Positions 4,830-55,387 of a stretch of DNA of 64,000 nucleotides are shown in pieces; positions within the stretch are counted from its first letter, which is position 1, and every line of letters begins with the position of its first letter. The notes beneath the pieces are model-generated. The model made no database searches and was not told the DNA's origin. It was given only the letters and a program-made list of their open reading frames with translations. This stretch comes from Leptobrachium leishanense (Eukaryota; Chordata; Amphibia; Anura; Megophryidae), in the NCBI GenBank assembly GCA_009667805.1, contig CM019063.1, positions 195,714,954-195,778,953 on the forward strand, in the 5' to 3' direction. A program made the translations under genes and the position numbers.

Positions 4830-5424
4830 ATTCTATGCAGGGGCGTACTTAGGGCCGGCGCTGCCGCTAGGCGAGCTAGGCGGCCGCCTAGAGCGCAGCC
4901 CGCCTAGGGCACAGCGCCGGGCCTGAAAAAAATATTGTGAGTGTGTGTCCGCCACGGGCGCGGCCCGCGGTAGCAGCCGGGGGCGCCACAATCTACTCGC
5001 AGCAGGCTGCAGGCCGTGCGACTGACACGCGTAAGTGATGCACCCAGGCTCCGTCTCCGCACGCATCACATCAGCGGCCGACGTGGTGCCGCTGCCAGGC
5101 TGCATGTGTTGGTTTGGCGGCAGCACACGCGCCCCCACGTCAGGCACCGCTGGAAGGAGGAGGCGGAGACTAATCGAGGCGGAGAGTTGCGTCGGAGTGA
5201 GACAGACAAAGGAAGCTGCTCTGTCTCCTCGGCTCCTGGAGTCCTGATGCACCTGCCTGTCACTGACTGGTTTGGGTCGACTGTCTGACATCTTCAAGTC
5301 GACGACAAGTTACACGATTCGAGCAGCAGGTATGGGGGGGCGCAATTTCAAATTGGCAATATATTATATATATATATATATGAAACAGCATGATGCATCT
5401 GTCAGCTGGCACTCAGGCCCTGCA

Positions 5425-6180
5425 CTGGGCAATATATATATGCATGATGGCGCATCTGTGAGCATGATGTGGGCTGGCCTGGGCAATATATATATACGCA
5501 TGATATGAGCTGGCCTGGGCAATATATATATACGCATGATGTGGGCTGGCCTGGGCAATATATATATACGCATGATGTGAGCTGGCAGGCCTGGGCAATA
5601 TATATACGCATGATGTGAGCTGGCCTGGGCAATATATATATATACGCATGATGTGGGCTGGCCTGGGCAATATATATATACGCATGATGTGAGCTGGCCT
5701 GGGCAATATATATATACACATGATGTGGGCTGGCCTGGGCAACATATATATATACGCATGATGTGAGCTGGCCTGGGCAATATATATACGCATGATGTGG
5801 GCTGGTCTGGGCAATATATATATATACGCATGATGTGAGCTGGCCTGGGCAATATATATACGCATGATGTGGGCTGGCCTGGACAATATATATATACGCA
5901 TGATGTGGGCTGGCCTGGGCAATCTATATATATGCATGATGTGAGCTGGCAGGCCTGGGCAATATATATATACGCATGATATGGGCTGGCCTGGGCAACA
6001 TATATATACGCATGATGTGGGCTGGCAGGCCTGGGCAATATATATATACGCATGATGTGAGCTGGCCTGGGCAATATATATACGCATGATGTGGGCTGGC
6101 CTGGGCAATATATATATATACGCATGATTTGGGCTGGACTGGGCAATATATATATATATACACATGATGTGAGCTGGCCT
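5425..6180. repeat. minisatellite, about 36-bp unit, roughly 20 copies
   Basis: Unit: GCATGATGTGGGCTGGCCTG followed by GGCAATATATATATAC. Variants differ in AT-run length, in GTGAGCTGG versus GTGGGCTGG, and in an extra CAGG. The long Tyr/Ile-rich open frames on the minus strand here are by-products of the repeat, not genes. Confidence 0.95.
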
Positions 6181-8278: not shown

Positions 8279-8494
8279 CCTGTGACCAGGGTAGCCGTCA
8301 GAAATGATGGGGCCCCTTACTGAACCTCAAGATAGGCCCCCCCGTAATCTTCCTCAACCTTTAACAGCCTTTCGCCCCTTTACAAAACAGCAATAAAACT
8401 CACTCTAATGTGCGGTGTGTATGAGCGTATCACAAAGCTGCACAGCAATAAAACCCACAGTAATGTGTAGTGTATATGAACAGCTGTGCCCTAA

Positions 8495-9172
8495 TGTTAC
8501 CGGAATCCACTTGGTTCACTCGGGACGAGGCCGGACCGGACACAAGCAAGGATTGTCTGAACACGAGTCTCTTCAGGAAAGGCAAGCTTTATTGTGACGT
8601 CACAGAATGCTCAGACAGGATTGAATCGCAAAGACTGAGCATCGATTACACAGTGACATGAGATTTTATACCCCAAATACATAATTAGGTACATCCCAAT
8701 TAGCCCACCTCCCAATGACACTCTCCCACCCCACGTGGGTTAATACCTCCCTTAACCTAATACAAAGACATTCCATTAATTGGCCGTAAATTGGCAAACT
8801 TTATGTTAGTTTCAGTAAATCATGATTAGTTGCTTCTCCTATTCCGGGCTGCGCCCTCCTCCCTAGCGCCTGCGATCATTTGTTGCAGCTAACACCTGGT
8901 CTGATCTCTATACTCCTTTGTCTCTCAGCGGGCCTCAGCGACCTTGGTGTATCTACTCCTCATTCTGCCCCTCCGTGCCAGGAACAGCCTAGACCTTTCT
9001 CAGACTTTAATTACTTTTTCTGCTAATCTAACACATTCCTAAATTTCTACGTATGCTCTATTCTAGTTTCAGCTAAAAAACCTGCCTAGTTATTTTCAAG
9101 TGAACCAATATTCTGAACAAGATGGCCGCCTGGCTTATAATGGCAGCCATCTTCCAGCCTATTTCCACTTCA
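8495..9172 (-). repeat. 3' LTR of the provirus
   Basis: 678 bp, nearly identical to 18202-18879. On the minus strand it runs TGAAGTGG...GGTAACA. TATAAAA lies at 8670-8664 and the poly(A) signal AATAAA at 8593-8588, about 75 nt downstream, giving a compact R region. The 5' edge of U3 has two YY1-like motifs (AAGATGGCTGCC and GGCCATCTTG) between 9155 and 9117; YY1 is known to act on gammaretroviral LTRs. Confidence 0.95.
8588..8593 (-). terminator. poly(A) signal AATAAA in the 3' LTR
   Basis: AATAAA on the minus strand, downstream of the LTR TATA box, as expected for 3' processing of the viral transcript. Confidence 0.8.
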
Positions 9173-9220: not shown

Positions 9221-10875
9221 TTACACCTCACTATTTTTATTCTCAAATTCCTCATACTTTGGGGGGCCTATTTTCGTCGGGAACATACCTTGTGGGATAA
9301 TCAGTGGTATCTTTTGTGTCTGTGCGGGTGTCAGTGCCTTCTTGCATAGCGGCCAGAGACAAAGCCCTATACGATACAGTAGTGCCCCTACGATCAAGAT
9401 CATCACCACCATCAGAATCATGGATCCAATCTGCGAAATAAATCTCAGAATGGATCCGAACCAATCTCCGATTGCTCCGAACCCACGGAGTGGATTCCAG
9501 CCTTCAGCAGCGATCCTCCTTGCTGTGTTCTGTAACTGTGCTACCTTTTCTTGGTGATCTTGGATTACCTGGTAATAGTCAGGGACGTCATGTGTAGCGT
9601 TCTTGATGAAAGTGCAACATTCAGAATGCATTGTCATCTCACACAATCCATTCAGGGCTGCACTAATCTGTTCCAGTGCCATATTGTGTATCATTTGCAC
9701 CTTTCGTATCTCTCGTACTTCCAGATTCAACAACTGAATATCCCAACTAGTCTTATTCAAAATCTCATCCATCAAACTGGCATAACTGTTCATTCTTGCC
9801 ATCAACTCTCTTCCCCATCCAGTCCATGCTGGAAGCCATGCCCATATTCGATCCGCTTTCTTGAATAGCTCTCTCTTCTGTCTTTCAAACACCAGTGGAT
9901 ACCTAGGGTGAAATGTTGTATCTGAATTAGTGTCTTCTCCCCTTACCCTCTGGATTGGGATCAATTTAGCCAAATAACACATTCCTGTCACTGTAGGTGG
10001 TACCCATGTGTAACACACTCCTTCACAGCACACCTGGTACCCTCCTTTCACTATAAATGGTGATGAGTATAGTGTTCCTTTTGTTATCGCTATCGCAAGC
10101 TGTCTCAGCCGTCTCATCATATCCACTATATCCTGCCTTCCATTGGTCGCATTCGCAATCTCCTCCTCTTGCTCTCTAGTAAATTGCCTGCATCGTATAT
10201 ATATATATAATACGCCTTCAGTCCTGTTCTGAATATATAAATATATGATGTCCAATTGAACTGACTTGAGTTACATACCCCACCCTCGTTATTTATCTCC
10301 TTATCTGGGCCTAATTGAAAACACCACTCTGGTTGGTACACTGGTCCTATTGTGGGGTGCCCGGGACTGAATGGTTCTGGTTTCTCCCTCGATGTATCGA
10401 CTGCCTGTACTGTAACATTTTCTGATGCAAACATACTCAAATTCATTGGGACAGAGGCGAATGGTATATGAATTGTCTCTGGGTGCAGTCTACTACACAC
10501 CCAACATGTGGTTTGCCCAGACTTTTTAGCATAGTCATATTTAAATTGCACAAGTAAATGTCCTTTTAGCTGGGTTCCAGATAGCGCCTCTCGTTTTTGT
10601 CTCCACATGGTACGGTTCTCCATCACCGGGTGTGTACCATTCCAGGTTTTGGTGGTGCTTGTGCACTTGGGGCATGCTCCACGTGACAGTCCATAAATCA
10701 AATGTGCAAGAAACAAAATCAGTACCAGAATTGCCCCAACTGTCAAAAACCCCATGGCAATTCTCTTCACAGTCACATATACCCAATCCCTCCCCGCCGG
10801 AATTTCAAGAACAAAAAGACATTTCCGGTTGATCACGGGTCGGGGCCGGGCCCCTAAAAATAACCCTCTCAGCAT
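9221..10875 (-). pseudogene. env: retroviral env (SU-TM), one frame break
   Basis: First part 10875-10126: a hydrophobic segment at residues about 40-65 (long leader or signal anchor), CPKC and CWVC cysteine pairs and several N-glycosylation sites. Second part, about 10230-9221: SU end, furin-type site RQKR, a TM ectodomain with an ISD-like stretch followed by CEMTMHSECC, a membrane span (MILMVVMILIVGALLYRI) and a cytoplasmic tail with PPKY, a PPxY late-domain motif. The cysteine motif is CX7CC, one residue longer than the usual gammaretroviral CX6CC. The frame breaks inside an AT dinucleotide tract (10195-10250). No clear hydrophobic fusion peptide directly follows RQKR. The product would be a membrane glycoprotein for entry; this copy is broken. 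Confidence 0.85.
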
Positions 10876-10959: not shown

Positions 10960-11609
10960 TCAGGGGCTCATGACTGTGGTCTTTGTTAGCTTTAGCCTCA
11001 GTGGATTGGTCTCGTTGGTGACGACCTTCCATACTGGTTCAGGATTGGCTGCAGCTACCTTCAGTCTGGAGTGATGTATCCACGGGACCACCTCGGCAAC
11101 CTTTACTGCTGTAGGGGTTGATAACAGGACAAAGTAAGGACCTCTCCATTTTGGGCCTAGTGGGTAATTTTTCCACTCTTTCACCCATACTGAATCACCT
11201 GGACAATATTTATGCAGTGGGGGTACAAAAAGTGAGGTATATTATCTCCCACCCAAGTATTTAATTTCTGCATTGCTTTACCCAACAGTACAACCTGATC
11301 ATTCAATTTAGTTTCCCCTAATGCCCGAAGGTCCCCCCTTAGTCCATTAATCAGAGGGGTAGGCCATCCAAACATGAGTTCGTACGGACTTAGTTTCAAT
11401 TGGGGGGTTGGCCTGCACCTAATGTGTAATAGGACTATTGGCAGCACATCCAACCAGCCTAATAACGTTTCTTGGCACAGTTTGGACATCAAAGTCTTTA
11501 GGGTGCGGTTCATTCTCTCGACTTTTCCCGAGCTTTGGGGCCTGTAAGCAGTATGTAACTTCCAGTCGGGCAAATTGCTGTAAACAGTTCTGTATAAATG
11601 CAGGGCCAT
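10960..11609 (-). pseudogene. pol: integrase, end of catalytic core and C-terminal GPY/F region
   Basis: 11609-11181 contains YRPQSSGKVERMNRTL, whose Glu (about 11519) is the third catalytic acidic residue. A frame change near 11235 leads to 11184-10960 with [10 protein letters not shown] and WIHHSRLK, the GPY/F module of gamma-type integrases. The upstream catalytic Asp codon is at 11613, so D-to-E spacing is only about 94 nt, less than the usual D-35-E interval; a small frame-shifting deletion fits. The stop at 10960 is 85 nt before the env start. Confidence 0.85.
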
Positions 11610-13122
11610 TGTCCGACCCTATTTCGAGAGGAAGTCCGTAGCGTGGTATTATTTCTTTCATCAGACTTTTCACCACTTCCACTGTCTTTTCTGTTCTCGT
11701 TGGGAAAGCTTCCACCCATTCTGTTAGGGTGCACACCATTACCAGTAGATATTTGTATCCTTTGCAGGGTGGCAACACTGTGAAATCTATTTGTAACGAT
11801 GCCATTGGAGACAGTCCGATTGGCTGCTTCCCTGGAGGTTGAGACGGGCCTGTTCTCGGATTATTCTTGGCACATGTCACGCACTGCTGGGCTATTGCTT
11901 TGCAGATTACTGACAGTCCTGGTACGTAGAAATGTGGCTCCAGTTGCTGTTCCATCATTTCTCTTCCTCCATGGGTACTTGCGTGGAGCGTTTTTACAAT
12001 CTCAGGCGCCAGTGTTGCTGGTAGAACTATTTGTCCATTCTCTAACTGGAACCATCCGTCCTCTCCATATACACCTTGTTCTTCTGATAGCCATTTCTTC
12101 TCTTTTTCTGAATACACAGGTGTCCATTCACTCAGTGGCGCCGGTAGAAGTGCAGCCACCACTGGTTTTACTTTGTATCGTGCCAATTCTCCATGGTTTC
12201 CCCAGATGAATTCTTCTTTTGGGAAATAATATCGCCAGGCAAAGAACAGCAGATCTTGTCTCTCCTGTGAATCTCTCACTGTTGGTATGAAGAAGTTCAT
12301 CGCACTTTTCTTCATTCTTGGCAGTTTGTTTTTGATAAGGATCTCCTTGAGGAAGAACCTCACCAATGGGGCTTGGTATTCTTCTGCACCCAATTCTCCC
12401 AAACTTAGCAGTATTCGTGTAATCCTCAGATTATTGTGAGGGTTGGTTGTTAGATTTTCAAAACGTGAGGCGAAATTTTCTGCTCGTTCAACTTCGGTTA
12501 CTGCTGTATCTTTATCTTCTCCATACTCCCCCATTAATTTTACGCCGAAGAATTTCAGCATCATTTTGTATGCTCGGCAGAGTCTGTGCTGAACTTCTGA
12601 GGTGTTAATCATAAGACGTGTCTCTTGAGGATTCAGAGGAGTGGAGTAGAAATTTCGACCTTGGGACTGAGTTGGGAAAAGCCATTGAATATAATCATGA
12701 TTGAGTTCTAATAGTTCGTAGTTATTGCGCCATTTGTGCAAAACAATTTCAATAAATTCACCTCCAGGTTCAAATTTTCTCCAATTCATGTAGAATTCAT
12801 AGTTTGGCATGGAAGGCTGAGCCTCTTGCTTGCAAATCAGGACTTTGGCTTGATCAGTTATTAGCAATGGTTTTGCAGCTGCTTTTGCGGCCTGGTCTGC
12901 GCGCCTGTTGCCTCTTGGGATTTCATCTTGACCCTTTTGGTGGCCACGACAGTGCATGATGCTGACAGCACTTGGTCTCCATACGGCATCCAGGAGAGCA
13001 ATTATTTCAGCTGCATACTTGATTTGCTGTCCTGAGGACGTCAGTAGGCCTCTTTCTTTGTAGAGTGCACCATGTGCATGGACAGTCATGAAGGCATATT
13101 TGGAGTCTGTGTAGATATTCAC
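11419..13122 (-). CDS. pol: pol segment: RNase H end, OGFr-like domain, integrase zinc finger and core
   Basis: 567 codons without a stop; it has no initiator of its own and is part of a polyprotein. Residues 1-84: end of RNase H (YTDSKYA, HCRGHQKG, RRADQAAK). Residues about 106-320 (12807-12163): strong resemblance to the OGFr N-terminal conserved domain, including NYEFYMNWRKFEPGGEFIE, LLELNHDYIQWLFP, NNLRITRILLSLGELG and FFAWRYYFPKEEFIWG. Residues about 335-370: usual connector. Residues 380-417: integrase HHCC finger (H380, H384, C414, C417). D446 and D504 are the first two catalytic acids. Reading of the true frame stops near residue 520. In the cell OGFr binds met-enkephalin and acts at the nucleus; its role here is unknown. 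The domain is intronless, which suggests capture through mRNA. It is the longest intact frame in the provirus. Confidence 0.9.
   Translation of the reverse strand: MNIYTDSKYAFMTVHAHGALYKERGLLTSSGQQIKYAAEIIALLDAVWRPSAVSIMHCRGHQKGQDEIPRGNRRADQAAKAAAKPLLITDQAKVLICKQEAQPSMPNYEFYMNWRKFEPGGEFIEIVLHKWRNNYELLELNHDYIQWLFPTQSQGRNFYSTPLNPQETRLMINTSEVQHRLCRAYKMMLKFFGVKLMGEYGEDKDTAVTEVERAENFASRFENLTTNPHNNLRITRILLSLGELGAEEYQAPLVRFFLKEILIKNKLPRMKKSAMNFFIPTVRDSQERQDLLFFAWRYYFPKEEFIWGNHGELARYKVKPVVAALLPAPLSEWTPVYSEKEKKWLSEEQGVYGEDGWFQLENGQIVLPATLAPEIVKTLHASTHGGREMMEQQLEPHFYVPGLSVICKAIAQQCVTCAKNNPRTGPSQPPGKQPIGLSPMASLQIDFTVLPPCKGYKYLLVMVCTLTEWVEAFPTRTEKTVEVVKSLMKEIIPRYGLPLEIGSDNGPAFIQNCLQQFARLEVTYCLQAPKLGKSRENEPHPKDFDVQTVPRNVIRLVGCAANSPITH
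12163..12807 (-). other. captured OGFr-like domain inside pol
   Basis: About 215 codons in frame with both retroviral flanks. Hallmarks of the family (Pfam OGFr_N type): WRKFEP, NHxYIQWLFP, the HNNLRITRIL block, APLVRFF and the FIWG end. Retroviruses of this class normally join RNase H to the integrase finger with only a short linker, so the block is an insertion relative to the family. Whether the donor was OGFR or OGFRL1 was not decided. Confidence 0.88.
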
Positions 13123-13129
13123 TCTTTTG

Positions 13130-14067
13130 CCTTCCGAAGAGTTGTAGGGCCCTGGTTAGGGCTGTTATTTCAGCCAGTTGTGCAGATGTATGGCCTGGTA
13201 GAGGATTTGCTTCAATAATTCTTCTGCGGAGACGACTGCATAGCCGGAGACTTTCTTCCCATCATCCATATAACTGTTACCATCAGTGAATAGTTGCAGA
13301 TCGTATTTGTCTAGGGGTATGTCTTTCAAATCTGGCCTGCTACTGAACACTTCCTCCATCACTTGGAGGCACTCATGAGCTGGATCTTCGTCACAGACAG
13401 GCAGTAAAGTAGCAGGGTTCAAGGTAGCGATAAGGTCCAAATGAACCCGTGGATTCTCACACATCATAGCTTGGTACTTTGTCATCCGGCTGTTGCTGAA
13501 CCAGTAGCCTCCTTTCACATCTAGCAGGGCCTTGACAGCATGGGGCACCTTGACATGAAGAACTTGTCCAAGTGTCAGCTTGTCTGCTTCTGCTATCAGC
13601 ATTGCTGTGGCTGCCACAGCTTTCAGGCGTGGGGGCAGGCCGCAGGCCACAGGATCAAGTTGCTTGGAGAGATAGGCCACAGGCCTCGGCCAGGAGCCCA
13701 AATTCTGAATCAATACCCCAGTAGCTGTTTGATTGTGTTCATGTACGTACAGCTGGAAGGGCTTGCTGTGATCTGGCAATCCCAGAGCTGGAGCTTCCAT
13801 TAGCAGAGTCTTCAATTTCAGAAAAGCTGCCGTTTGCTCTTCTTCCCATAGAAAAGGGTCATGCTCTCCTCCCTTGGTGGCTTGATGGAGGGGTTTAGCA
13901 ATGTCTGCGAAGTTGGGGATCCACAGACGGCAGAAGCCAGCAGCTCCCAGGAATTCACGGACTTCTTTGGTTGGGGTATTCGACATACTGTCTCCTTTCT
14001 CTCTGCCCCCAGTGCACGCTTGGTACCTGTTAATTGAAAACCTAAATATTTCACAGTCTGTTTGCAT
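13130..14067 (-). pseudogene. pol: RT connection domain and first half of RNase H
   Basis: Frame from about 13990: REFLGAAGFCRLWIP, ALGLPDHSKPFQLYV, RPVAYLSKQLDPVA and SRMTKYQAMM, the RT connection of gamma-type viruses. RNase H starts with LFTDGNSYMDDGKKVSGYAVV. Two close frame changes between about 13200 and 13130 separate this from the next pol segment. The short indels, mostly near homopolymers, could be true decay or assembly error. Confidence 0.85.
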
Positions 14068-14891
14068 ATTTGTGCTTTCTTTTTAGACACTCTGTAACCT
14101 GCTTGGCACAATAGATGTAGCAGGGCTTTAGTGGCGGAGAAACAGTCTTTTTCTGTGGGAGAAGCCAGTAATAAATCATCAACATACTGTAATAGAACAA
14201 CTTTGTGTGGCTGAGCGTTGAAGGACAGGAGGTCCTGGCTGAGCGCGCACCCAAAAATCGTGGGCGAGTTCTTGAAACCTTGAGGGAGGCGTGTCCAGGT
14301 CATTTGATGACGCGCTCCCGTGGTTGATTCCTCCCACTGAAACGCAAAAAGGGGCTGGCTTGCTGGAGCCAGGCGGATGCAAAAGAAAGCGTCTTTTAGA
14401 TCAAGCACCGTGTAATATTTTGTATCTCCGGGGATTAATACCAATAGATTGTATGGATTGGGAACCACGGGGTGTAGAGTTACTGTGGCTTCGTTAACCG
14501 CTCGTAAATCTTGGACTGGGCGGTACTCCTGTGTGCCCTCTTTCAGTACTGGCAACAGAGGTGTGTTCCACGGTGACATGCAGAATTTCAATATGCCGTG
14601 ATCTTTAAGTCTCTGCAAATGTGTCTGGATATTCTGCTTGGCTTTTTGTGGGATATGGTACTGTCTTAGAGCCACAGGCGTTGCACCCGGTTTTAAATCA
14701 ACGTACACTGGAGGGATATTTACAGCTAGTCCGGGTGGGTTTTCCTCGGCCCATACACCAGGGATGCCCAGAAGTAGTGTGTATGGGTCCGGGTCGGCCG
14801 GCGGCGTTGATGCCGTGCGCCATTCCTCTTCCCTTGGCATAATTACTGCAATTTTTACAGGTTGGATGCACTGGCTGGCTGGGCTGTCCTG
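13985..14891 (-). pseudogene. pol: reverse transcriptase fingers and palm
   Basis: Frame continues from the protease after the TGA at 14894-14892. Motifs: SPWNTPLLPV, YRPVQDLRAVNEA, VLDLKDAFFCIRL, TRLPQGFKNSPTIF and the catalytic YVDD at 14186-14175. Similarity to the gammaretroviral RT core is high throughout. The true frame is lost near 13990 and continues in the frame described for 13130-14067. Copies viral RNA into DNA. Confidence 0.9.
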
Positions 14892-15260
14892 TCATGTAGA
14901 GCTGCCACTCTCAGGCAGGTCCAATCTAGCGTGACCCCCGGGGAGAAATGTAATTTGGGCTTGCAATTTGCAAAGGATATCCCGCCCCAGGAGCTGGATG
15001 GGACATTCGGGCATATACAAAAATTCATGTTCAACATTATGCCCACCCACACTACATTTTCGTGAAGCAAGAAAGGGGTACTTAGCAGACACCCCCATTG
15101 CTCCCACGATATCAACTTCATTTCCCATTGGGGGAGCAATTTGCTGTGTTACAACAGAATATTCGGCACCGGTGTCAATCATAAAAATTTCATCTTTATT
15201 CCCCACTCTCATAGTGACCGTGGGCTCGTGATTACCGAGCGGGATGGGCCCAGGTCCGTG
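14892..15260 (-). pseudogene. pro: retroviral protease
   Basis: Begins in the same frame as nucleocapsid, after the UGA at 15263-15261. Contains the aspartic protease signature MIDTGAEYSVV, the flap region and IQLLGRDIL. A TGA at 14894-14892 separates it from RT in the same frame and may be a CGA-to-TGA change; this stop is not expected at that place and would block pol. Confidence 0.88.
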
Positions 15261-15263: not shown

Positions 15264-17087
15264 ATATGTACCTTGCCCTTCAAATGACGTTCCCGCCAAC
15301 CCAACAAATCCTGCACCGGCACCATCATTTCTCTCATACCTGCCGTTTGTTACCTGGCCATTGGAAGCCTGACCTCCTGACTCCCCAGCTTCCCCCTGTA
15401 CCCCATGTTTAGCCAAAAGTCCCGGACAATTATTTTTCCAGTGACCCTCGCCCCGGCACCAAGCGCACTGATTGGGTCCTGGGGGTACCCAGGGGGCTCC
15501 CCTACCTCTGCCTCCCCGACCCCTCGCTCTCCTCTGTCTGGGGTACCTCTTCCTCCTCCATTTCCCATATATCCGACCACCCCTGTATACCCTTTTGTTC
15601 TTTATCTCCTCCGCGTTTCTTCTAAATCCCGGTTATGAAACACTTTATTAGCAATTTCAACTAATTCACTAATACCTTTTCCTAGAACCCATCTTGTCTC
15701 TGTATTTTATTCCGTATATCTCTCTGTGACTGACTCACAAAGGAGGAATTAATTAACCTCTGATTTTCCACTGCCTCAGGATCAATAGGACTGTACATCC
15801 TATATGCATCTAGAGTAACCTTTCTAGAAATGCACTCAGGGTTTCTCTGGATTCTTGCACAATATCCGCTATTTTCCCCATGTTTGTGGGTTTCTTTCCT
15901 CCCGCTTTAACACCCATTATTACCGCTGTACGGTACGTCTGCAGGTGTGCAATACCCGCAGCAGTATTGTACGGCCACTTGGGATCTGTTTTGGGGTAGT
16001 GTTCCTCTGCCCACGCTTCTGGCTGGGCTCTGGCATCTTCTACGGCTTGAGCAAGTAGAATCTTCTGCGCGCTAATATTTATTCGGGCTCTTTCCTCAGT
16101 AGTGAACATTGTCAGCATTAATTGCTGACAATCTGACCATGTGGGGTTATGTGTAAGCATAACTGACTCTATCATACTGGCCACCGCTGCGGGATTAATA
16201 GAATACAGTGGTGTGTGTGTTTTCCAGTTGAATAGATCTGTTGTCGTGAATGGGACATATGTGTATTGCACTGGCCCAGGTGCTCCGTTTTCCAATAAGG
16301 GACCTGGCACCTCCCGTAGGGGCATCTGCATTTTACTTTTACCGGGGTTGTGCTGATATAGATCTCGGGGTTTATATATATTGTTCGCTGCGCGAGTGGT
16401 AGCACCTTGCTTTCCCTCTTCACTCTCATCATCATCCTCACTGTCCTCTTGGTCTACCAATTTATATATGCTCCCATCGGGCATTTCGATCTTTCCTGGT
16501 GGGACCTCTCTGCCTCTTCCACACACTGCCCCCTCATCTTCCTCCGCAATTCCGCTCACCGGAGGGGAGGAAGCCGGCGGAGCAGTAGCAGCCGCCCGCC
16601 TCCCTCCCTCCGCCTGCGCAACAGCGGCACGCAAAGCTTCTCTAGCTGCCCCATAATATGATGGATAGGGCGGGGACAGGGAATCAATCTCCTCCGGTTG
16701 TTCTACCAACACCGGTCTTTTCTTTTTATTATTTTCTCTATTGGGGGGTACTTGCTTCTTGTTACGTCCCACCATCATTATAAAATGACTTTTATCTTTT
16801 ACACAATACTTCCATATATCTATATATGGGTACTGCTCAGGATGTCCGCATTTCCCGGTTACTTGGGAATGCACTTTCTGTATTAGCGCCGGGTCCATTG
16901 ACCCCTGCTCTGGCCAGTCTGGAACTAGCAGTGGCCACACAATTGTACACATTCCTGTTAATTTATCTTTAGTTAACTCTACACCATAATCATGTGTTGT
17001 ATATAGTACTTTAAAATTTCGCACCATATACCCTAAGGGTGTCTCACCCTTCTTTACCTTTTTGGGCTTGGATGACCCGTTACCCAT
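15261..17087 (-). pseudogene. gag: retroviral gag (MA, CA, NC) with three frame changes
   Basis: ATG at 17087. The MGNGSSK start fits N-myristoylation of matrix. A Pro/Ala/Ser and acidic region follows, then capsid: PLREVPGPLLENG, LFNWKTHTP, IESVMLTHNPTWSDCQQL and a major-homology-like QESRETLSAFLERL. The first frame ends at 15810, shortly after this motif. Frame changes near 15829, 15690 and 15630 interrupt the CA end and linker. The last part is Arg-rich and carries one CCHC knuckle, CAWCRGEGHWKNNC (about 15470-15429), before the UGA at 15263. Builds the virion core; this copy is broken. Confidence 0.9.
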
Positions 17088-18201
17088 TGTTACTCTTAAG
17101 GGCAGTAACCTTTTTACAATACAGATATTACTTTTTAGGAAAAAAAAAACCTTGAAATTTACTGTCTGGTACTTCAGTCAACAATTCATGTATATCGGAT
17201 TCGCTTCCTCCGTCAGTAGCCGGACTGCAGTCGCCTGAGCCGGAAACGTACCTTGGGAGTCCACTCTCAAGTTTGCTTTCTCGCTAGGCGAGTAGGCGCT
17301 CGATCACGCACAACACTCTCAGCAATCATTCACAACCCATACTGTACCAGATACTTTCAGCACAAAACAATACATAAACAATTCTACTCTTTCTACTAGC
17401 CGAGGGCACACCGTCCCTCCTTTTGACTCCTTATACCCAATTGATTGAACTCTATCTCTTGTCTGCTTGTGACTATGTGCACCCCGTTCTATAACTACAC
17501 TCCCATCTGCAATTCCAATTTGCCTATGAGTAATTCTACCGACCCAACACCACTTCCTCTGCAGCTACCGCTGGCCCCAATGAGCCCTCTTCACTACACG
17601 ACGTACACACTAGCACTGACTCAGGGCTCTAAGCCCGGTCACAGAAATCTCTCCTCCTTTCCTTTGTCCACGTGGTGAAGCTCTATTTACAAACACTGAC
17701 TATGACTACGCAACTCCACGCGGCTCCCCTCTCCCTCAAATTCAGAACCCAAACAATCAAAACAATCTAACTTATAGTTAGCATCCGATCCCCCGGGTCC
17801 AGACACGCGCTAGCCACTCTGGCTCCGTGCTTTCGGCGGCAGGTTCGGTATGCCAACGAAACCGTGGCCGCGGGTTTCCTTATCCAACTACGGTTGGACG
17901 TTTCCCTTTATACCGGTATTTCCATTAGACATACAAACATAGAAGACACTTTACCTATCGCCGCGCTGTTCGCTGTTTCCTCGGACTCAGGAGTGTCCCA
18001 GCTTCCCAGGCCGGGGGTCCGTTTGGGACGAGATGAGGTCCTCTGTACAGGAAATCCTGCTTGGTGCCTGCAGATGTCAGCTCACCTTCAACGGACGCCC
18101 AACCAGCAGGATCACTCGCACCTGCAGTCAACCGCTACAGTGTCCAGCAGTCGTTGCCGTGCCGGCAAGGGCCCGTATCCCGGCTATCGAGCCCCCAGAA
18201 A
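17088..18201 (-). other. proviral 5' leader
   Basis: About 1.1 kb between the 5' LTR and gag. It must hold the primer site and probably the packaging signal and splice donor, but I could not place the last two. No conserved protein. Plus-strand open frames here are fortuitous. Confidence 0.7.
18180..18197 (-). other. primer-binding site, tRNA-Pro-like
   Basis: Four bases after the LTR end the minus strand reads TGGGGGCTCGATAGCCGG. The first ten bases equal the well-known tRNA-Pro primer site; the rest departs from it and rejoins at CCGGGAT after about three extra bases. Either a variant Pro tRNA or another tRNA ending CGAGCCCCCA. Confidence 0.65.
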
Positions 18202-18879
18202 TGTTACCGGAATCCACTTGGTTCACTCGGGACGAGGCCGGACCGGACACGAGCAAGGATTGTCTGAACACGAGTCTCTTCACGAAAGGCAAACTTTATT
18301 GTGACATCACAGAATGCTCAGACAGGATTGAATCGCAAAGACTGAGCATCGATTACACAGTGACATGAGATTTTATACCCCAAATACATAATTAGGTACA
18401 TCCCAATTAGCCCACCTCCCAATGACACTCTCCCACCCCACGTGGGTTAATACCTCCCTTAACCTAATACAAAGACATTCCATTAATTGGCCGTAAATTG
18501 GCAAACTTTATGTTAGTTTCAGTAAATCATGATTAGTTGCTTCTCCTATTCCGGGCTGCGCCCTCCTCCCTAGCGCCTGCGATCATTTGTTGCAGCTAAC
18601 ACCTGGTCTGATCTCTATACTCCTTTGTCTCTCAGCGGGCCTCAGCGACCTTGGTGTATCTACTCCTCATTCTGCCCCTCCGTGCCAGGAACAGCCTAGA
18701 CCTTTCTCAGACTTTAATAACTTTTTCTGCTAATCTAACACATTCCTAAATTTCTACGTATGCTTTATTCTAGTTTCAGCTAAAAAACCTGCCTAGTTAT
18801 TTTCAAGTGAACCAATATTCTGAACAAGATGGCCGCCTGGCTTATAATGGCAGCCATCTTCCAGCCTATTTCCACTTCA
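18202..18879 (-). repeat. 5' LTR of the provirus
   Basis: 678 bp, TG...CA on the minus strand. TATA box at 18377-18371, AATAAA at 18300-18295. About six substitutions separate it from the 3' LTR and no indel. It abuts the CTGGCTGGGCC minisatellite. Confidence 0.95.
18371..18377 (-). promoter_or_regulatory. LTR TATA box
   Basis: TATAAAA on the minus strand, about 75 nt upstream of the LTR poly(A) signal; would start viral transcription leftward. Confidence 0.75.
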
Positions 18880-19720
18880 CTAGGGTCTGGCTGGGCCTTG
18901 GGGTCTGGCTGGGCCCTGGCTGGACCTTGGGGTCTGGCTGGGCCATGGCTGGACCTTGGGGTCTGGCTGGACCTTGGGGTCTGGCTTGGATCTGGCTGGA
19001 CCTTGGGGTCTGGCTTGGATCTGGCTGGACCTTGGGGTCTGGCTGGGCCCTGGCTGGACCTTGGGGTCTGGCTGGGCCTTGGGGTCTGCCTGGGCCCTAA
19101 GGGTCTGGCTGGGCCCTGGGGGTCTGGCTGGGCCCTGGGGGTCTGGCTGGACCCGGAGGGACCCTGGGGGTCTGGCTGGGCCCTGAGGGGCTGGCTGGAC
19201 CTTGGGGTCTGGCTGGGGTCTTCCTGGGCCCTGAGGGTCTGGCTGGGCCCTGAGGGTCTGGCTGGGCCCTGGGGGGTCTGGCTGGACCTTGGGGTCTGGC
19301 TGGGCCCTGGCATCTGGTTGGGCCCTGGCTGGACCTTGGGGTCTGGCTGGGCCCTAAGGGTCTGGCTGGACCTTGGGGTCTGACTGGGCCCTGGGGTCTT
19401 CCTGGGCCCTGAGGGTCTGGCTGGGCCCTGGCTGGACCTTGGGGTCTGGCTGGGCCCTGAGGGTCTGGCTGGACCTTGGGGTCTGGCTGGGCCCTGAGGG
19501 TCTGGCTGGACCTTGGGGTCTGGCTGGGCCCTGGTGGTCTGGCTGGACCTTGGTGTCTGGCTGGGCCCTGGAGGTCTGGCTGGGCCCTGGTGTCTGGCTG
19601 GGCCCTGGAGGTCTGGCTGGACCTTGGGGTCTGGCTGGGCCCTGGTGGTCTGGCTGGGCCCTGGTGGTCTGGCTGGGCCTTGGGGTCTGGCTGGTCCCTG
19701 GGGGTCTGGCTGGGCCATGG
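18880..19720. repeat. minisatellite, CTGGCTGGRCCYTGGGGT type
   Basis: About 45 units of 18-20 bp alternating CTGGCTGGACCTTGGGGT with CTGGCTGGGCCCTGAGGGT. It belongs to the hAT-like element, not to the provirus. Gives spurious Pro/Ser/Gln frames on one strand and Trp/Leu/Gly frames on the other. Confidence 0.95.
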
Positions 19721-19914
19721 CTCACCACTCCGCCGTCTTCCTTCCCTGTCCTCCTTTACTTCTCTTTTCTTTTCTTCTCTCTTCTCCTCTGCTCTCATAG
19801 AGTCTGATACCGGAGCTGAAGAAGACCTGCCGCCACTGACGACAGGGCCCCGGCGAGCCAGGCCCCTTACGGCAGCATGGGGTGTAATGCCCTGATGGCG
19901 GCCCTGCCTGTGAC

Positions 19915-35259: not shown

Positions 35260-35700
35260 GCGAGAAGCGCCTTGGGTACTTTGGAACTGTACATCTCTGT
35301 TTTTTATACTGCACAAGGTCAAGTGAGATGTCTTTAGAAAGGTCAGAGTCTGGCCTTTCCAACGATACCAAATATGACCATGTATTGTGAAAAATAGAAA
35401 AAAAAAAAGCTTTGCACGCTTCTGTAGGGCCACCCAGGGATTCGGACTCCTATTGTTCGATACCAGAGCTGATGGGCACCCCCGATCAAAATAAATTTAA
35501 TCAATCAAAAACTTTAATGATTAATCAATTAATTAATCGCTAATTTCCACAGCCCTAAAAAAAATGAAATGCAAAATTTTACTTTTTCTCCCATCATTTC
35601 TAAGGCAGGGGCATAATGTGCTTTTACTTGTAAAGCAAACAATGCTGCTACACTAACTATCCTTCTCATTTCCCAAGCCGGGATCATATGTGGAGGTAAT
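35260..35700. repeat. direct repeat copy 1 (441 bp)
   Basis: Starts GCGAGAAGCGCCTTGGGTAC and ends ATATGTGGAGGTAAT. Nearly identical to 37119-37558. Parts also recur in diverged form on both sides (35040-35259, 37560-37740), so the locus was already a low-copy tandem repeat. Confidence 0.9.
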
Positions 35701-37118: not shown

Positions 37119-37558
37119 GCGAGAAGCGCCTTGGGTACTTTGGAACTGTACATCTCTGTTTTTTATACTGCACAAGGTCAAGTGAGATGTCTTTAGAAAG
37201 GTCAGAGTCTGGCCTTTCCAACGATACCAAATGTGACCATGTATTGTGAAAAATAGAAAAAAAAAAGCTTTGCACGCTTCTGTAGGGCCACCCAGGGATT
37301 CGGATTCCTATTGTTCGATACCAGAGCTGATGGGCACCCCTGATCAAAATAAATTTAATCAATCAAAAACTTTAATGATTAATCAATTAATTAATCGCTA
37401 ATTTCCACAGCCCTAAAAAAAATGAAATGCAAAATTTTACTTTTTCTCCCATCATTTCTAAGGCAGGGGCATAACGTGCTTTTACTTGTAAAGCAAACAA
37501 TGCTGCTACACTAACTCTCCTTCTCATTTCCCAAGCCGGGATCATATGTGGAGGTAAT
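37119..37558. repeat. direct repeat copy 2 (440 bp)
   Basis: Second copy; a few substitutions and one A-run difference from 35260-35700. Sequence continues with ATGGCACAATG, the continuation expected of the uninterrupted locus. Confidence 0.9.
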
Positions 37559-40074: not shown

Positions 40075-41565
40075 TACAGTTGTGTTCAAAATTATTCAAC
40101 CCCCAATGCTGTAAAGGGTTTTAGGGAATTTAGTGTACATTTGTAATTTTATTCAGAATGAAATCCTACAAGGACTTTTTAAAGAACCATATGCAACTAA
40201 AATGACATCAATTGGTTTTGTAATACAGTAGTAAATGTTTCTTTTGTGAATTCTTCATTGACACAATTATTCAACCCCTTAAAGACTACCACTTTGAAGA
40301 ACAGAGGTTCATTCAAGTGTTTTCAATCAGGTATTGAAAACACCTGTGGATGTCACTGAGCAGCAATAAAGCATAATAAGCACCAATTAGGCAGCTTTAA
40401 AATGACTGTGATACTCAGCTCCTTCTAGACATTTACTGGTGTGGTTACAAACATGGTGAAGTCAAGAGAATGGTCCAGGAAGACAAGAGAAGAGGTGATT
40501 ACTCTTCACAGGAAGGGCAATGGCTATAAGAAGATTGCAAAGATGTTAAACATACCAAGAGAGACCATAGGAAGCATCATTTGCAAATTCAAGGCAAAGG
40601 GCACTGTTGAAACGCTACCTGGTCGTGGCAGAAAGAAGATGCTGACTTCGACTGCTGTGCGCTACCTGAAGCGTCGAGTGGAGAAAAGTCCCCGTGTGAC
40701 TGCTGAGGAACTGAGAAAAGATTTGTCAGATGTGGGTACTGAAGTTTCAGCTCAGACAATACGGCGCACACTGCGTAATGAAGGCCTCCATGCCAGAACT
40801 CCCTTGCTGTCTCCAAAGAATAAGAAGAGTCGACTGCAGTATGCCAAAAGTCATGTGGACAAACCACAGAAGTTTTGGGATAGTGTTCTGTGGACTGATG
40901 AAACAAAATTAGAACTGTTTGGGCCCATGGATCAACGCTATGTTTGGAGGAGGACGAACAAGGCCTATGAAGAAAAGAACACCTTCCCTACTGTGAAGCA
41001 TGGTGGGGGTCAATCATGCTTTGGGGCTGTTTTGCTTCTGCAGGTACAGGGAAGCTTCAGCGTGTGCAAGGTACCATGAATTCTCTTCAGTACCAGGAGA
41101 TATTGGATGACAATGTGATGCAGTCCGTCACAAACCTGAGGCTTGGGAGACGTTGGACCTTTCAACAGGACAATGATCCCAAGCATACCTCCAAGTCCAC
41201 TAGAGCATGGTTGCAGATTAAAGGCTGGAACATTTTGGAGTGGCCATCGCAGTCACCTGACTTAAATCCAGGGCTCGAGTCGAGCGGGAACGCGCAGGAA
41301 CGGCGTTCCCGCACTTTTCCCACAGCGGGAACGCTGCGGGAACGCAGCGTTCCCGCTGTGGCCCGAGCCAGAACGCCGCCGCCGCACATTGCCGGCGGCC
41401 GGCGTGCTTCCTGTTACAAGGGCCAGCTGACAGGAGGTGGAGCCGCTCGCCTGGCTGTTTCATAGTTCCCAGGCGAGCGGCTGCACTTCCTGTCAGCGGC
41501 CACTGAAGCAGGAAGCACGCGGCCGCTGGCAATGTGGAGCAGCAAAGGTGAGCTGGGCTGGGGGC

Positions 41566-43050
41566 AGTATCCATGAGACCAGGGGGGCAGTATCCATGAG
41601 ACCAGGGGGCATTATCCATGAGACCAGGGGGGCAGTATCCATGAGACCAGGGGGGCATTATCCATGAGACCAGGGGGGCATTATCCATGAGACCAGGGGG
41701 GCAGTATCCATGAGACCAGGGGGGCATTATCCATGAGACCAGGGGGGCAATATCCATGAGACCAGGGGGGCAATATCCATGAGACCAGGGGGGCATTATC
41801 CATGAGACCAGGGGGCATTATCCATGAGACCAGGGGGGCAATATCCATGAGACCAGGGGGGCATTATCCATGAGACCAGGGGGGCATTATCTTATCCATG
41901 AGACCAGGGGGGCATTATCCATGAGACCAGGGGGCATTATCCATGAGACCAGGGGGGCAGTATCCATGAGACCAGGGGGCAGTATCCATGAGACCAGGGG
42001 GGCAATATCCATGAGACCAGGGTGGCAATATCCATGAGACCAGGGGGGCAGTATCCATGAGACCAGGGGGGCAATATCCATGAGACCAGGGGGGCAATAT
42101 CCATGAGACCAGGGGGGCAATATCCATGAGACCAGGGGGGCATTATCCATGAGACCAGGGAGGCATTATCCATGAGACCAGGGGGCAATATCCATGAGAC
42201 CAGGGGGGCATTATCCATGAGACCAGGGGGAATTTTCCATGAGAGCTGGGGCATTATCCATGAGACCTGGGGGCAATATCCATGAGAGCTGGGGCAATAT
42301 CCATGAGAGCTGGGGCAATATCCATGAGAGCTGGGGCATTATCCATGAGAGCTGGGGCAATATCCATGAGAGCTGGGGCAATATCCATGAGAGCTGGGGC
42401 ATTATCCATGAGAGCTGGGGCATTATCCATGAGAGCTGGGGGCATTATCCATGAGAGCTGGGGGCATTATCCATGAGAGCTGGGGGCATTATCCATGAGA
42501 CCTGGGGGCATTATCCATGAGACCTGGGTGCAATATCCATGAGACCAGGGGGGCAGTATCCATGAGACCAGGGGGCAATATCCATGAGACCAGGGGGCAA
42601 TATCCATGAGACCAGGGGGGCATTATCCATGAGACCAGGGTGGCAATATCCATGAGACCAGGGGGGCAGTATCCATGAGACCAGGGGGGCAGTATCCATG
42701 AGACCAGGGGGGCATTATCCATGAGACCAGGGGGGCAGTATCCATGAGACCAGGGGGCAGTATCCATGAGACCAGGGGGGCATTATCCATGAGACCAGGG
42801 GGCAATATCCATGAGACCAGGGGGGCATTATCCATGAGACCAGGGGGAATTTTCCATGAGAGCTGGGGCATTATCCATGAGACCTGGGGGCAATATCCAT
42901 GAGAGCTGGGGCAATATCCATGAGAGCTGGGGCATTATCCATGAGAGCTGGGGCATTATCCATGAGAGCTGGGGGCATTATCCATGAGAGCTGGGGGCAT
43001 TATCCATGAGAGCTGGGGGCATTATCCATGAGAGCTGGGGGGCATTATCC
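41566..43050. repeat. minisatellite, TCCATGAGACCAGGGGGGCA type
   Basis: About 65 units of 21-24 bp. Two subtypes alternate in blocks: ATCCATGAGACCAGGGGGGC and ATCCATGAGAGCTGGGGCA. A block containing GGGGGAATTTTCCATGAGAG occurs twice (about 42226 and 42840), showing a higher-order duplication of about 610 bp. Confidence 0.95.
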
Positions 43051-43104
43051 ATATGAGCTGGGGCAATTATATCCATGTGAACTGGGGAAAATATATCCAT
43101 ATAA

Positions 43105-43612
43105 CCAGTGCTGTGTATATTATTCTTGGGGTTCAGTGCTGTGTATGTTATTCTGGAGGCTCAGTGCTGTGTATATTATCCTGGAGGCTCAGTGCTGTGT
43201 ATATTATTCTGGAGGTTCAGTGCTGTGTATATTATTCTTGGGGTTCAGTGTTGTGTATGTTATTCTGGGGGCTCAGTGCTGTGTATGTTATTCTGGGGGC
43301 TCAGCGCTGTGTATATTATTCTGGGGGCTCAGCGTTGTGTATGTTATTCTGGGGGCTCAGTGCTGTGTATATTATTCTGGGGGCTCAGTGCTGTGTATAT
43401 TATTCTGGGGGCACAATGTTGTGTATATTATTCTGGGGACACAATGTTGTGTATATTATTCTGGGGGCTCAGTGCTGTGTATATTATTCTGGGGGCTCAG
43501 TGCTGTGTATATTATTCTGGGGGCTCAGCGCTGTGTATATTATTCTGGGGGTTCAGCGCTGTGTATATTATTCTGGGGGTTCAGCACTGTGTATATTATT
43601 CTGGGGGTCTGT
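43105..43612. repeat. minisatellite, 28-bp unit, about 18 copies
   Basis: Unit GTGCTGTGTATATTATTCTG followed by GGGGCTCA. Because 28 is not a multiple of 3, all three frames stay open and give Tyr/Cys/Leu-rich artefacts. Inverted counterpart at 54752-55125. Confidence 0.95.
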
Positions 43613-44489
43613 GCCTGGAGATATATATATATATATAATGCGTTAGTCCAGTTGCCACAATCACGAGTATACCTGTACGTAGTGATACCTTTCACTGATC
43701 AGTATAGTTTCCAGTTTACACTCTTGAAAGCTTGTCTTTTAAATGTAAAGTTAACCCAATAAAAATGGTATCACCGGCACGCACTGCTATACTCGTAATA
43801 TATATATATATATATATATATAATTTTTCTTCAGGTAATGGGGGTTGTAGAATTCGTGGGTGAGTTCCCTCACTTTTTTTCCCAGGACTTGACCCCTGCT
43901 TAAATCCCATTGAGAACCTCTGGTGGGACTTAAAGAAAGCAGTTGCAGTGCGCAAGCCTAAGAATGTGACTGAACTGGAGGCTTTTGCCCATGACGAATG
44001 GGCGAAGATACCCGTAGATCGCTGCAAGACACTTGTGTCAAGCTATGCTTCACGTTTAAAAGCTGTTATAACTGTAAAATGATGTTGTACTAAGTACTAA
44101 GATTGAATGTCACTTGGGGGTTGAATAAAACTGATAATGATGTGAGCACAGAAAAGACATTTGTGGTTATTTCATTATAAATGTTATGTTATATTTGTCT
44201 GACCTACATGTGCCTCTTTGATTTAATTGTAAGCAAGATGACTGAATGATCAAAATCAATGTCAAACTGGCCAAAACACTCAATTTCAGTGGGGGTTGAA
44301 TAATTTTGAACACAACTGTACTTAAAATACCCTGTATTAGACCGGAGTTCTAATAAAATATGAACCTTTATTCTTAACTTTTAAGAAGGCTGAATATCTA
44401 CCCCCTATACACACAGAAAATAAAATATAGACACTTAACAAAAAGGGAGAAAACCAAGGAAAATAAGAAGTGACTAACATTTAACATTT

Positions 44490-48721: not shown

Positions 48722-49590
48722 GATAGATAGATAAATATATAGATAATTATTTTATCGTCTAACATAGATGGATACATAATTGTCGTATAGTTTAAGGTAG
48801 ACAGCTTAGATAAATAGATATAGATGATACATAGATAATGATTGTATAGTTTAAGATAGATAGACAGCTATGGATAGATAGATAAATAATGGGTAAATAA
48901 CTATTTTATCGTTTAACATAGATGAGTGTTGAAGAGTTTAAGATAAGATAGGCAGAAAGTTAATTATTGTATAGTTTAAAATAGATAGACACTTATATAT
49001 AGACAGATATAGATGATAGACACTTATATATAGACAGATATAGATGATAGACACCTATAGATAGACACTTATATATAGACAGATATAGATGATAGACACT
49101 TATATATAGACAGATATAGATGATAGACACCTATAGATAGACACTTATATATAGACAGATATAGATGATAGACACTTATATATAGACAGATATAGATGAT
49201 AGACACCTATAGATAGACACTTATATATAGACAGATATAGATGATAGACACTTATATATAGACAGATATAGATGATAGACAACTATAGATAGACACTTAT
49301 ATATAGACAGATATAGATGATAGACACTTATATATAGACAGATATAGATGATAGACACCTATAGATAGACACTTATATATAGACAGATATAGATGATAGA
49401 CACTTATATATAGACAGATATAGATGATAGACACCTATAGATAGATAGACACTTATATATAGACAGATATTGTATAGTTTAAGATAGACCGCTATAGATA
49501 AATAGATATGTAATTAATTATTGTATAGTTTAAGACTGATAGATAGACAGATATAGATGATAGACTGATAATTGTTGAATAGTTAAACTT
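48722..49590. repeat. GATA-type simple repeat and derived minisatellite
   Basis: ATAGATAGATA tracts, and from 48985 to 49470 an ordered array of GATAGACACTTATATATAGA and CAGATATAGAT with CACCTATAGATAGACAC spacers. The higher-order period is about 113 bp. Confidence 0.9.
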
Positions 49591-54751: not shown

Positions 54752-55125
54752 CAGACCCCCAGAATAATATACACAGCGCTGAACCCCCAGAATAATATAC
54801 ACAGTGCTGAACCCCCACTGTGCCCCAGAATAACATACACAACACTGAGCCCCCAGAATAACATACACAGCACTGAGCCCCCAGAATAACATACACAACA
54901 CTGAACCCCCAGAATAACATACACAGCACTGAGCCCCCAGAATAACATACACAGCGCTGAGCCCCCAGAATAATATACACAGCACTGAGCCTCCAGGATA
55001 ATATACACAGCACTGAGCCTCCAGGATAATATACACAGCACTGAACCCCCAGAATAATATACACAGCACTGAGCCCCCAGAATAACATACACAGCACTGA
55101 ACCCCAAGAATAACATACACAGCAC
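54752..55125. repeat. minisatellite, 28-bp unit (inverted), about 13 copies
   Basis: Unit TGAGCCCCCAGAATAATATA followed by CACAGCAC, the inverse of 43105-43612. AT dinucleotide runs flank it (54530-54550 and 54711-54738). Confidence 0.95.
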
Positions 55126-55387
55126 TGGTTATATGGATATATTTTCCCCAGTTCACATGGATATAATTGCCCCCAGTTCACTTGGATATAATTGCCCCCA
55201 GTTCACTTGGATATAATTGCCCCAGCTCATATGGATAATGCCCCCCCAGGTCTCATGGATAATGCCCCCAGCTCTCATGGATATGCCCCCAGCTCTCATG
55301 GATATGCCCCAGGTCTCATGGATAATGCCCCCAGCTCTCATGGATATGCCCCAGGTCTCATGGATACTGCCCCCATGGTCTCATGGT

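Follow-up and report, generated by a model that had tools for sequence, protein, structure and literature searches.

Host gene capture and the presence of an extra domain between RNase H and integrase are both known kinds of change in retroviruses, the former mostly from oncogene viruses. An example of the latter is the dUTPase of non-primate lentiviruses, which occupies that place in pol and is described as a proteolytic product of Gag-Pol (PMC4531489). Here we describe an endogenous retrovirus (ERV) in a stretch of 64,000 nucleotides from the frog Leptobrachium leishanense (contig CM019063.1, positions 195,714,954 to 195,778,953; hereafter the window, with positions counted from its first letter). 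The pol of this provirus is confirmed to carry, in frame between RNase H and integrase, a domain of the opioid growth factor receptor (OGFR), a host growth regulator.

The stop-free translation of 13122-11419 on the minus strand is 567 residues long and matches four Pfam families in the order RNase_H (residues 1-83, E 2.6e-12, covering only positions 62-140 of the 141 in the profile), OGFr_N (PF04664; residues 103-310, E 7.3e-71, profile 4-204 of 208), Integrase_H2C2 (residues 368-423, E 5.7e-10) and rve (residues 439-519, E 9.1e-14). With a score of 238.4 bits against a curated cut-off of 22, the OGFr_N match places the segment in the family. The original prediction, made from the letters of the window, was that RNase H, OGFr and integrase follow one another with both joins in frame; the open frame and the Pfam order bear this out, and the profile match, whose absence had been named beforehand as grounds for giving the prediction up, is very strong. 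The predicted limits, 12163-12807, correspond to residues 106-320 and are correct to within 3 residues, as the host-like stretch (12810-12172) begins with MPNYEFY at residue 105 and ends with ARYK at residue 317. The integrase finger is in the frame as predicted, and the core only as far as residue 519, a later piece lying in another frame. OGFr_N is the sole Pfam match between RNase H and integrase, and PF04680, the repeats of some host OGFRs, gave no Pfam match in the window copy. After the OGFr domain the frame goes back to pol linker, so that the segment is not a whole receptor. In the predicted structure the domain is a confident, separate helical module, and the linker on its N side is predicted to be disordered.

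The join is not private to this copy. A protein search with residues 60-440 of the frame found 1140 proteins, of which 120 were listed (proteins are given below by their P numbers); clusters and annotations were counted by eye, cluster by cluster rather than member by member. At least 37 of these 120 rows are from L. leishanense. Two of the 37 are host OGFR (P0043 and P0108, 71% and 70% identical to Pelobates OGFR), and the remaining listed clusters, at least 35 standing for 101 members, are of proviral type, a call made by tree for 27 of the 35 and by identity and neighbouring domains only for the 8 partial ones. Over the part that aligns, the identity of the 35 to the query is 47-93%. In 23 of them OGFr_N has an RNase H or integrase-type domain annotated next to it, and RNase H, OGFr_N and the integrase zinc finger occur together in four (P0003, P0006, P0007 and P0011), the P0003 cluster having 49 members. 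The window domain is up to 95% identical to the Leptobrachium proviral domains, which by itself points to Leptobrachium or a close relative as the source of the window. Because the join recurs in other L. leishanense proteins, in several divergent subfamilies, it is real, as the original prediction had it; an assembly chimera is ruled out by this recurrence, which in the protein records extends to at least 23 listed clusters.

When five OGFr proteins and nine OGFr-less pols were aligned from RNase H to the integrase core, a single extra block appeared between the end of RNase H (ADQAAKAAAK) and the linker (AALLPAPLSEWTPVYSEKEKKW); in the OGFr-less P0123 the RNase H end runs almost straight into this linker. 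From the GN..AD motif it is 309, 307, 309 and 275 residues to the first histidine of integrase in P0001, P0003, P0007 and P0011, part of the linker being absent from the last, and 53-81 residues in the nine OGFr-less pols, in keeping with the earlier statement that gamma-type pol normally has a short linker here. The integrase part of P0003 used as query found 266 proteins, 120 of them listed; among the matches listed, OGFr_N is annotated in four rows, all Leptobrachium, and in none of the 115 rows that are not recorded as Leptobrachium; the junction lies outside P0122, the one further Leptobrachium row. The OGFr-less pols P0123, P0124, P0126 and P0145, with lizards and caecilians among their sources, are pol relatives with the same type of linker past the insertion point; they differ in that they cover the junction without an OGFr domain. 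The Pelobates pol P0131 is also a relative, whose gene model skips the junction and is thus uninformative there.

Where the domain came from was addressed with trees. Of 90 domain stretches cut out, the window's among them, 73 were used; the 17 dropped were partial, and 8 of the 35 proviral clusters had stretches among these. All 28 proviral rows in the tree fall in a single clade (support 100/100), and this clade joins the two host OGFRs of Leptobrachium (98/90). The comparison with host OGFRs that had been proposed with the prediction thus yields one proviral clade, nested near Leptobrachium OGFR. As in a transduced host gene, the viral copies nest near the host's own gene, with an exact sister that is insecure by the approximately unbiased (AU) test. 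An amniote OGFR as donor is disfavoured (p-AU 0.04). The AU test rejects a clade that unites the host OGFRs with every proviral row except P0039 (p 0.0002), and P0039 therefore belongs with the other proviral rows. For integrase, 122 of 124 proteins entered the tree (P0010 and P0027 were dropped), six of the eight OGFr pols among them; in this quick tree the Leptobrachium pols are one clade (Shimodaira-Hasegawa-like approximate likelihood ratio support 99) adjoining a pol of Pelobates fuscus (97), with OGFr-less pols around them, and P0122 groups with the OGFr pols. As the Leptobrachium pols stand beside a Pelobates pol, pol agrees with a frog origin. These trees make a single capture, from a frog OGFR, the most likely origin of the domain.

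A trace of how this happened may be kept in P0039, the first branch within the proviral clade, which continues into pol linker past the OGFr domain and keeps 37 extra residues ahead of it. These share 15 ungapped identities with isoform X2 of Pelobates OGFR, a number reached by 0 of 20000 shuffles (best 11), and 2 and 1 identities with isoform X1 and with the Leptobrachium host model P0043, respectively, both of which are models with a membrane-like exon in between. Because the upstream residues of P0039 match X2, we infer that the captured molecule was an OGFR mRNA spliced like X2. A short similar segment upstream of the domain is present in P0040 and P0041 only. P0041 has, between RNase H and the OGFr domain, three similar short repeats (RGYP, GGYP and NGNP) that resemble the host segment DLRKYRNGYP; they may be leftovers of a captured N-terminal part.

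The provirus lies on the minus strand of the window with the following features, listed from its 5' end:

18202-18879, minus: 5' long terminal repeat (LTR), TG...CA; flank CTAG at 18880-18883
18180-18197, minus: primer-binding-site region, starting TGGGGGCTCG, the first 10 bases tRNA-Pro-like
15810-17087, minus: gag open reading frame (ORF); Pfam Gag_MA E 1.1e-10, Gag_p30 E 1.4e-37
14892-15212, minus: protease ORF; Pfam RVP E 2.3e-12
13818-14840, minus: reverse transcriptase (RT) ORF; Pfam RVT_1 E 2.2e-30
13165-14067, minus: RT connection and first part of RNase H (RT_RNaseH_2, RT_RNaseH); in the frame of the OGFr ORF and ended by an in-frame stop
12871-13122, minus: RNase H end; Pfam residues 1-83, last residues ADQAAKAAAK, ending at residue 84
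12811-12870, minus: N-side junction, predicted disordered; contains KVLICKQE at 12823-12846
12172-12810, minus: captured OGFR domain, residues 105-317; Pfam OGFr_N, predicted all-helical fold
12022-12171, minus: ordinary pol linker resumes, AALLPAPLSEWTPVYSEKEKKW; alignable with OGFr-less relatives
11854-12021, minus: integrase HHCC zinc finger; Pfam Integrase_H2C2
11566-11808, minus: integrase core; Pfam rve, ends at residue 519
11181-11609, minus: later integrase part in another frame; rve_3, weak, E 0.012
9221-10875, minus: env region, two overlapping ORFs
8495-9172, minus: 3' LTR, TG...CA; flank TTAG at 8491-8494

The LTRs differ at 6 of 678 positions. Their edges are intact, as had been claimed, with TG starts and CA ends, and the flanking duplication is imperfect, CTAG and TTAG being alike in 3 of 4 bases. 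A minisatellite-like array at 18851-19757 (units of about 18, 19 and 11 bases) lies against the 5' end of the provirus or overlaps it. The two ORFs of the env region gave no envelope match in Pfam. In Leptobrachium P0122, an env-like protein comes after integrase and shows C-x7-CC spacing, which we take to be an env motif. The window copy is defective, with a broken pol: stops at 13165-13167 and 13156-13158 lie just upstream in the OGFr frame, and the RT ORF is in another frame than the RNase H ORF. The domains Gag_MA, Gag_p30, RVP, RVT_1, RNase H, H2C2 and rve are those of a gamma-type element and the integrase nests among gamma-type pols in the quick tree; judged by these sequences, the element is a gamma-type (class I) ERV, the host lineage likely being Leptobrachium frogs. 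In PMC10435555 L. leishanense is among the threatened species with invading ERVs, and OGFr or opioid is not mentioned in the main text of that source.

Whether the domain has been of use to the virus can be approached through the columns that are at least 95% conserved in 39 tetrapod host rows. Counted as protein-level changes, inner-branch changes of the proviral clade fall on these columns in 27 of 256 cases, against a permutation mean of 79.9 and a lowest value of 44 in 10000 permutations. Because inner-branch changes thus avoid the host-conserved columns, the domain was likely used by replicating viruses. The same figures speak against the domain being a neutral passenger, caught by accident and carried along by amplified genomic copies, as does the fact that the avoidance is stronger on inner than on terminal branches, the difference being modest (Fisher p 0.03), and that the domain is still recognisable between subfamilies at 54% identity. 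The broken pol of the window copy, and the many partial proteins among the 35 listed proviral clusters, are what one would expect of such a passenger; we disfavour it and give it very little credence.

Our account of the locus is a single capture from a spliced frog OGFR mRNA, packaging with Gag-Pol, and competition with the growth brake of host OGFR. The domain would be made as part of Gag-Pol and, since Gag-Pol products are packaged, would enter the particles, where the protease would free it or where it would stay on RT. On the N side KVLICKQE, whose general form is kept in 18 of the 24 proviral rows showing the domain start, is a possible protease site judging from its sequence, and on the C side AALL/PAPL in the linker is another; in general terms, cleavage would be at KVL(I/L)CKQ(E/D) and LLPxP(L/I). 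In a newly infected cell the domain, as a binding domain minus the rest of the receptor, would compete with host OGFR. OGFR slows the G1-S transition via the cyclin-dependent kinase (CDK) inhibitors p12 and p16 (PMC8363427) and via p21 (PMC2253554). A weakened p16/p21 brake would leave more cells cycling, to the gain of the virus. Gammaretroviruses need dividing cells for integration, and it is because of this dependence on cell division that a weaker brake would help. The mechanism by itself, interference of a Gag-Pol-delivered domain with the OGFR brake, we consider possible and rather doubtful, and the same doubt attaches to the wider proposal that the lineage made the OGFR domain a working part of Gag-Pol, delivered with every particle and unlocking resting frog cells through several subfamilies. 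We hold the account as a whole tentatively, somewhat short of an even chance, and place it above the mechanism because its identity and capture parts are much firmer.

A number of results count against this account. With regard to the donor, the AU test gives p = 0.07 when the proviral rows are held with Pelobates OGFR and p = 0.34 when the four host pelobatoid OGFRs are held together, so that the sequences used do not secure a sister relationship to Leptobrachium OGFR, and the match to isoform X2 comes from one gene model, P0039, of the 24 rows showing the domain start. Of these 24 rows, 6 lack the N-side motif, in two cases where the gene model breaks, and its C-side counterpart is found in 20 of 36 rows, the rest mostly having it changed or not covering it. 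Terminal-branch changes avoid the host-conserved columns too (57 of 337, 105 expected), and constraint was measured on proteins, at the protein level only, rather than as the ratio of nonsynonymous to synonymous rates (dN/dS). In every pair compared for both, the domain has a lower identity than RNase H: 54-59% against 66-75% for P0040 and P0041 versus other subfamilies, and 72-91% against 84-93% for the remaining pairs. Compared with integrase, its identity is higher in 4 and lower in 6 of 10 pairs, where the window integrase stretch extends beyond the lost frame and has its identities lowered by this. The subfamily of P0024, P0027, P0040 and P0041 has an altered C-terminal end of the domain, net charge ranges from -8 to +3 across five copies, and the function given to the domain is a prediction.

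Other roles have been weighed against interference with the growth brake. The domain could be a virion trafficking adaptor, staying with RT or within the pre-integration complex and connecting it to nuclear import factors or chromatin, in the service of integration and not of the cell cycle; the structural matches are at noise level, mixed with retromer, PP2A and designed proteins, and the nuclear signals of OGFR fall outside the OGFr_N domain, and we regard such an adaptor as unlikely. If instead OGFR is part of the host response to infection, the virus could deliver the domain as a decoy to blunt it, to which we assign a low probability. Some frogs and fish have host proteins that carry at least two OGFr domains, which fits this idea, and so does the 2.2-fold rise in OGFR S55 phosphorylation seen beside an interferon signature in SARS-CoV-2-positive nasopharyngeal samples, although the S55 data are a correlation and do not demonstrate OGFR as an antiviral effector (PMC8363427); among the papers listed in the literature search, at the level of titles and abstract openings, OGFR restricting a retrovirus was not found. 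A purely structural role, in which Gag-Pol processing or replication requires the domain and there is no connection to host OGFR signalling, would be comparable to the dUTPase-related segment of bovine immunodeficiency virus (BIV). The domain has the same pol site as the lentiviral dUTPase, the BIV segment is described as needed for replication without detectable enzyme activity (PMC4261571), and constraint on the fold would also follow. Fold constraint and constraint from partner binding are inseparable in these data, while a structural role alone leaves the choice of an OGFR domain unexplained, and we think it improbable that this is the whole story.

Some further observations concern OGFr proteins of hosts and the rest of the window. 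Tandem OGFr host proteins, with two or three stretches, are P0030 and P0033 in dendrobatid poison frogs and P0029, P0035, P0037, P0042 and P0238 in fish. In the window, direct repeats at 35399-35700 and 37257-37558, about 300 bases long, 99% alike and 1858 bases apart, are possibly the LTRs of a small non-autonomous element, or else a duplication. A 28-base tandem array at 42994-43719 has an inverted copy about 11 kb away at 54816-55173, at most 94% complementary, and additional minisatellite-like arrays lie at 5416-6158 (36-base units), 41491-42870 (23) and 48905-49588 (31/14).

What sets this locus apart is that the host regulator can be named, sits in frame inside pol, is present across several subfamilies and is constrained in sequence. 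If our account is true, the domain would be a natural inhibitor or mimic of OGFR, the RNase H-integrase gap would be a general cargo site of pol beyond dUTPase, and OGFR would be a target whose disabling benefits retroviruses. No earlier report of an OGFR domain inside a retroviral pol was found in the literature searched.

A structure search found no related solved structure for OGFR. A viral protein with the same predicted fold is the OGFr protein of Marseillevirus LCMAC202 (BFVD A0A481YX38, E 1.8e-6), a separate protein of 186 residues from a giant DNA virus, 17% identical and unfused to retroviral enzymes. The host OGFRs of Leptobrachium (P0043, P0108) and Pelobates (P0058) share OGFr_N and are 49-52% identical to the query. 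Unlike them, the window copy is without the N-terminal acidic region and the C-terminal tail and lies inside a viral polyprotein, P0039 alone among the proviral copies having a longer upstream piece of host OGFR. The v-onc genes and the rv-cyclin of walleye dermal sarcoma virus are likewise captured host coding sequence, to which the present case adds a possible trace of a spliced mRNA. Those genes usually replace viral genes or lie in accessory frames, some of the viruses being defective; the OGFr piece, in contrast, is part of the pol frame, where RNase H and integrase are retained on either side, and belongs to a family of several subfamilies. Similar in arrangement is the pol of non-primate lentiviruses, which also has an extra domain between RNase H and integrase, so that the locus shares the position of the dUTPase cassette and not its dUTPase domain: the lentiviral domain is an enzyme of about 130 residues (PMC4531489), and the one in this gamma-type virus is helical, about 213 residues long and derived from a growth regulator of the host.
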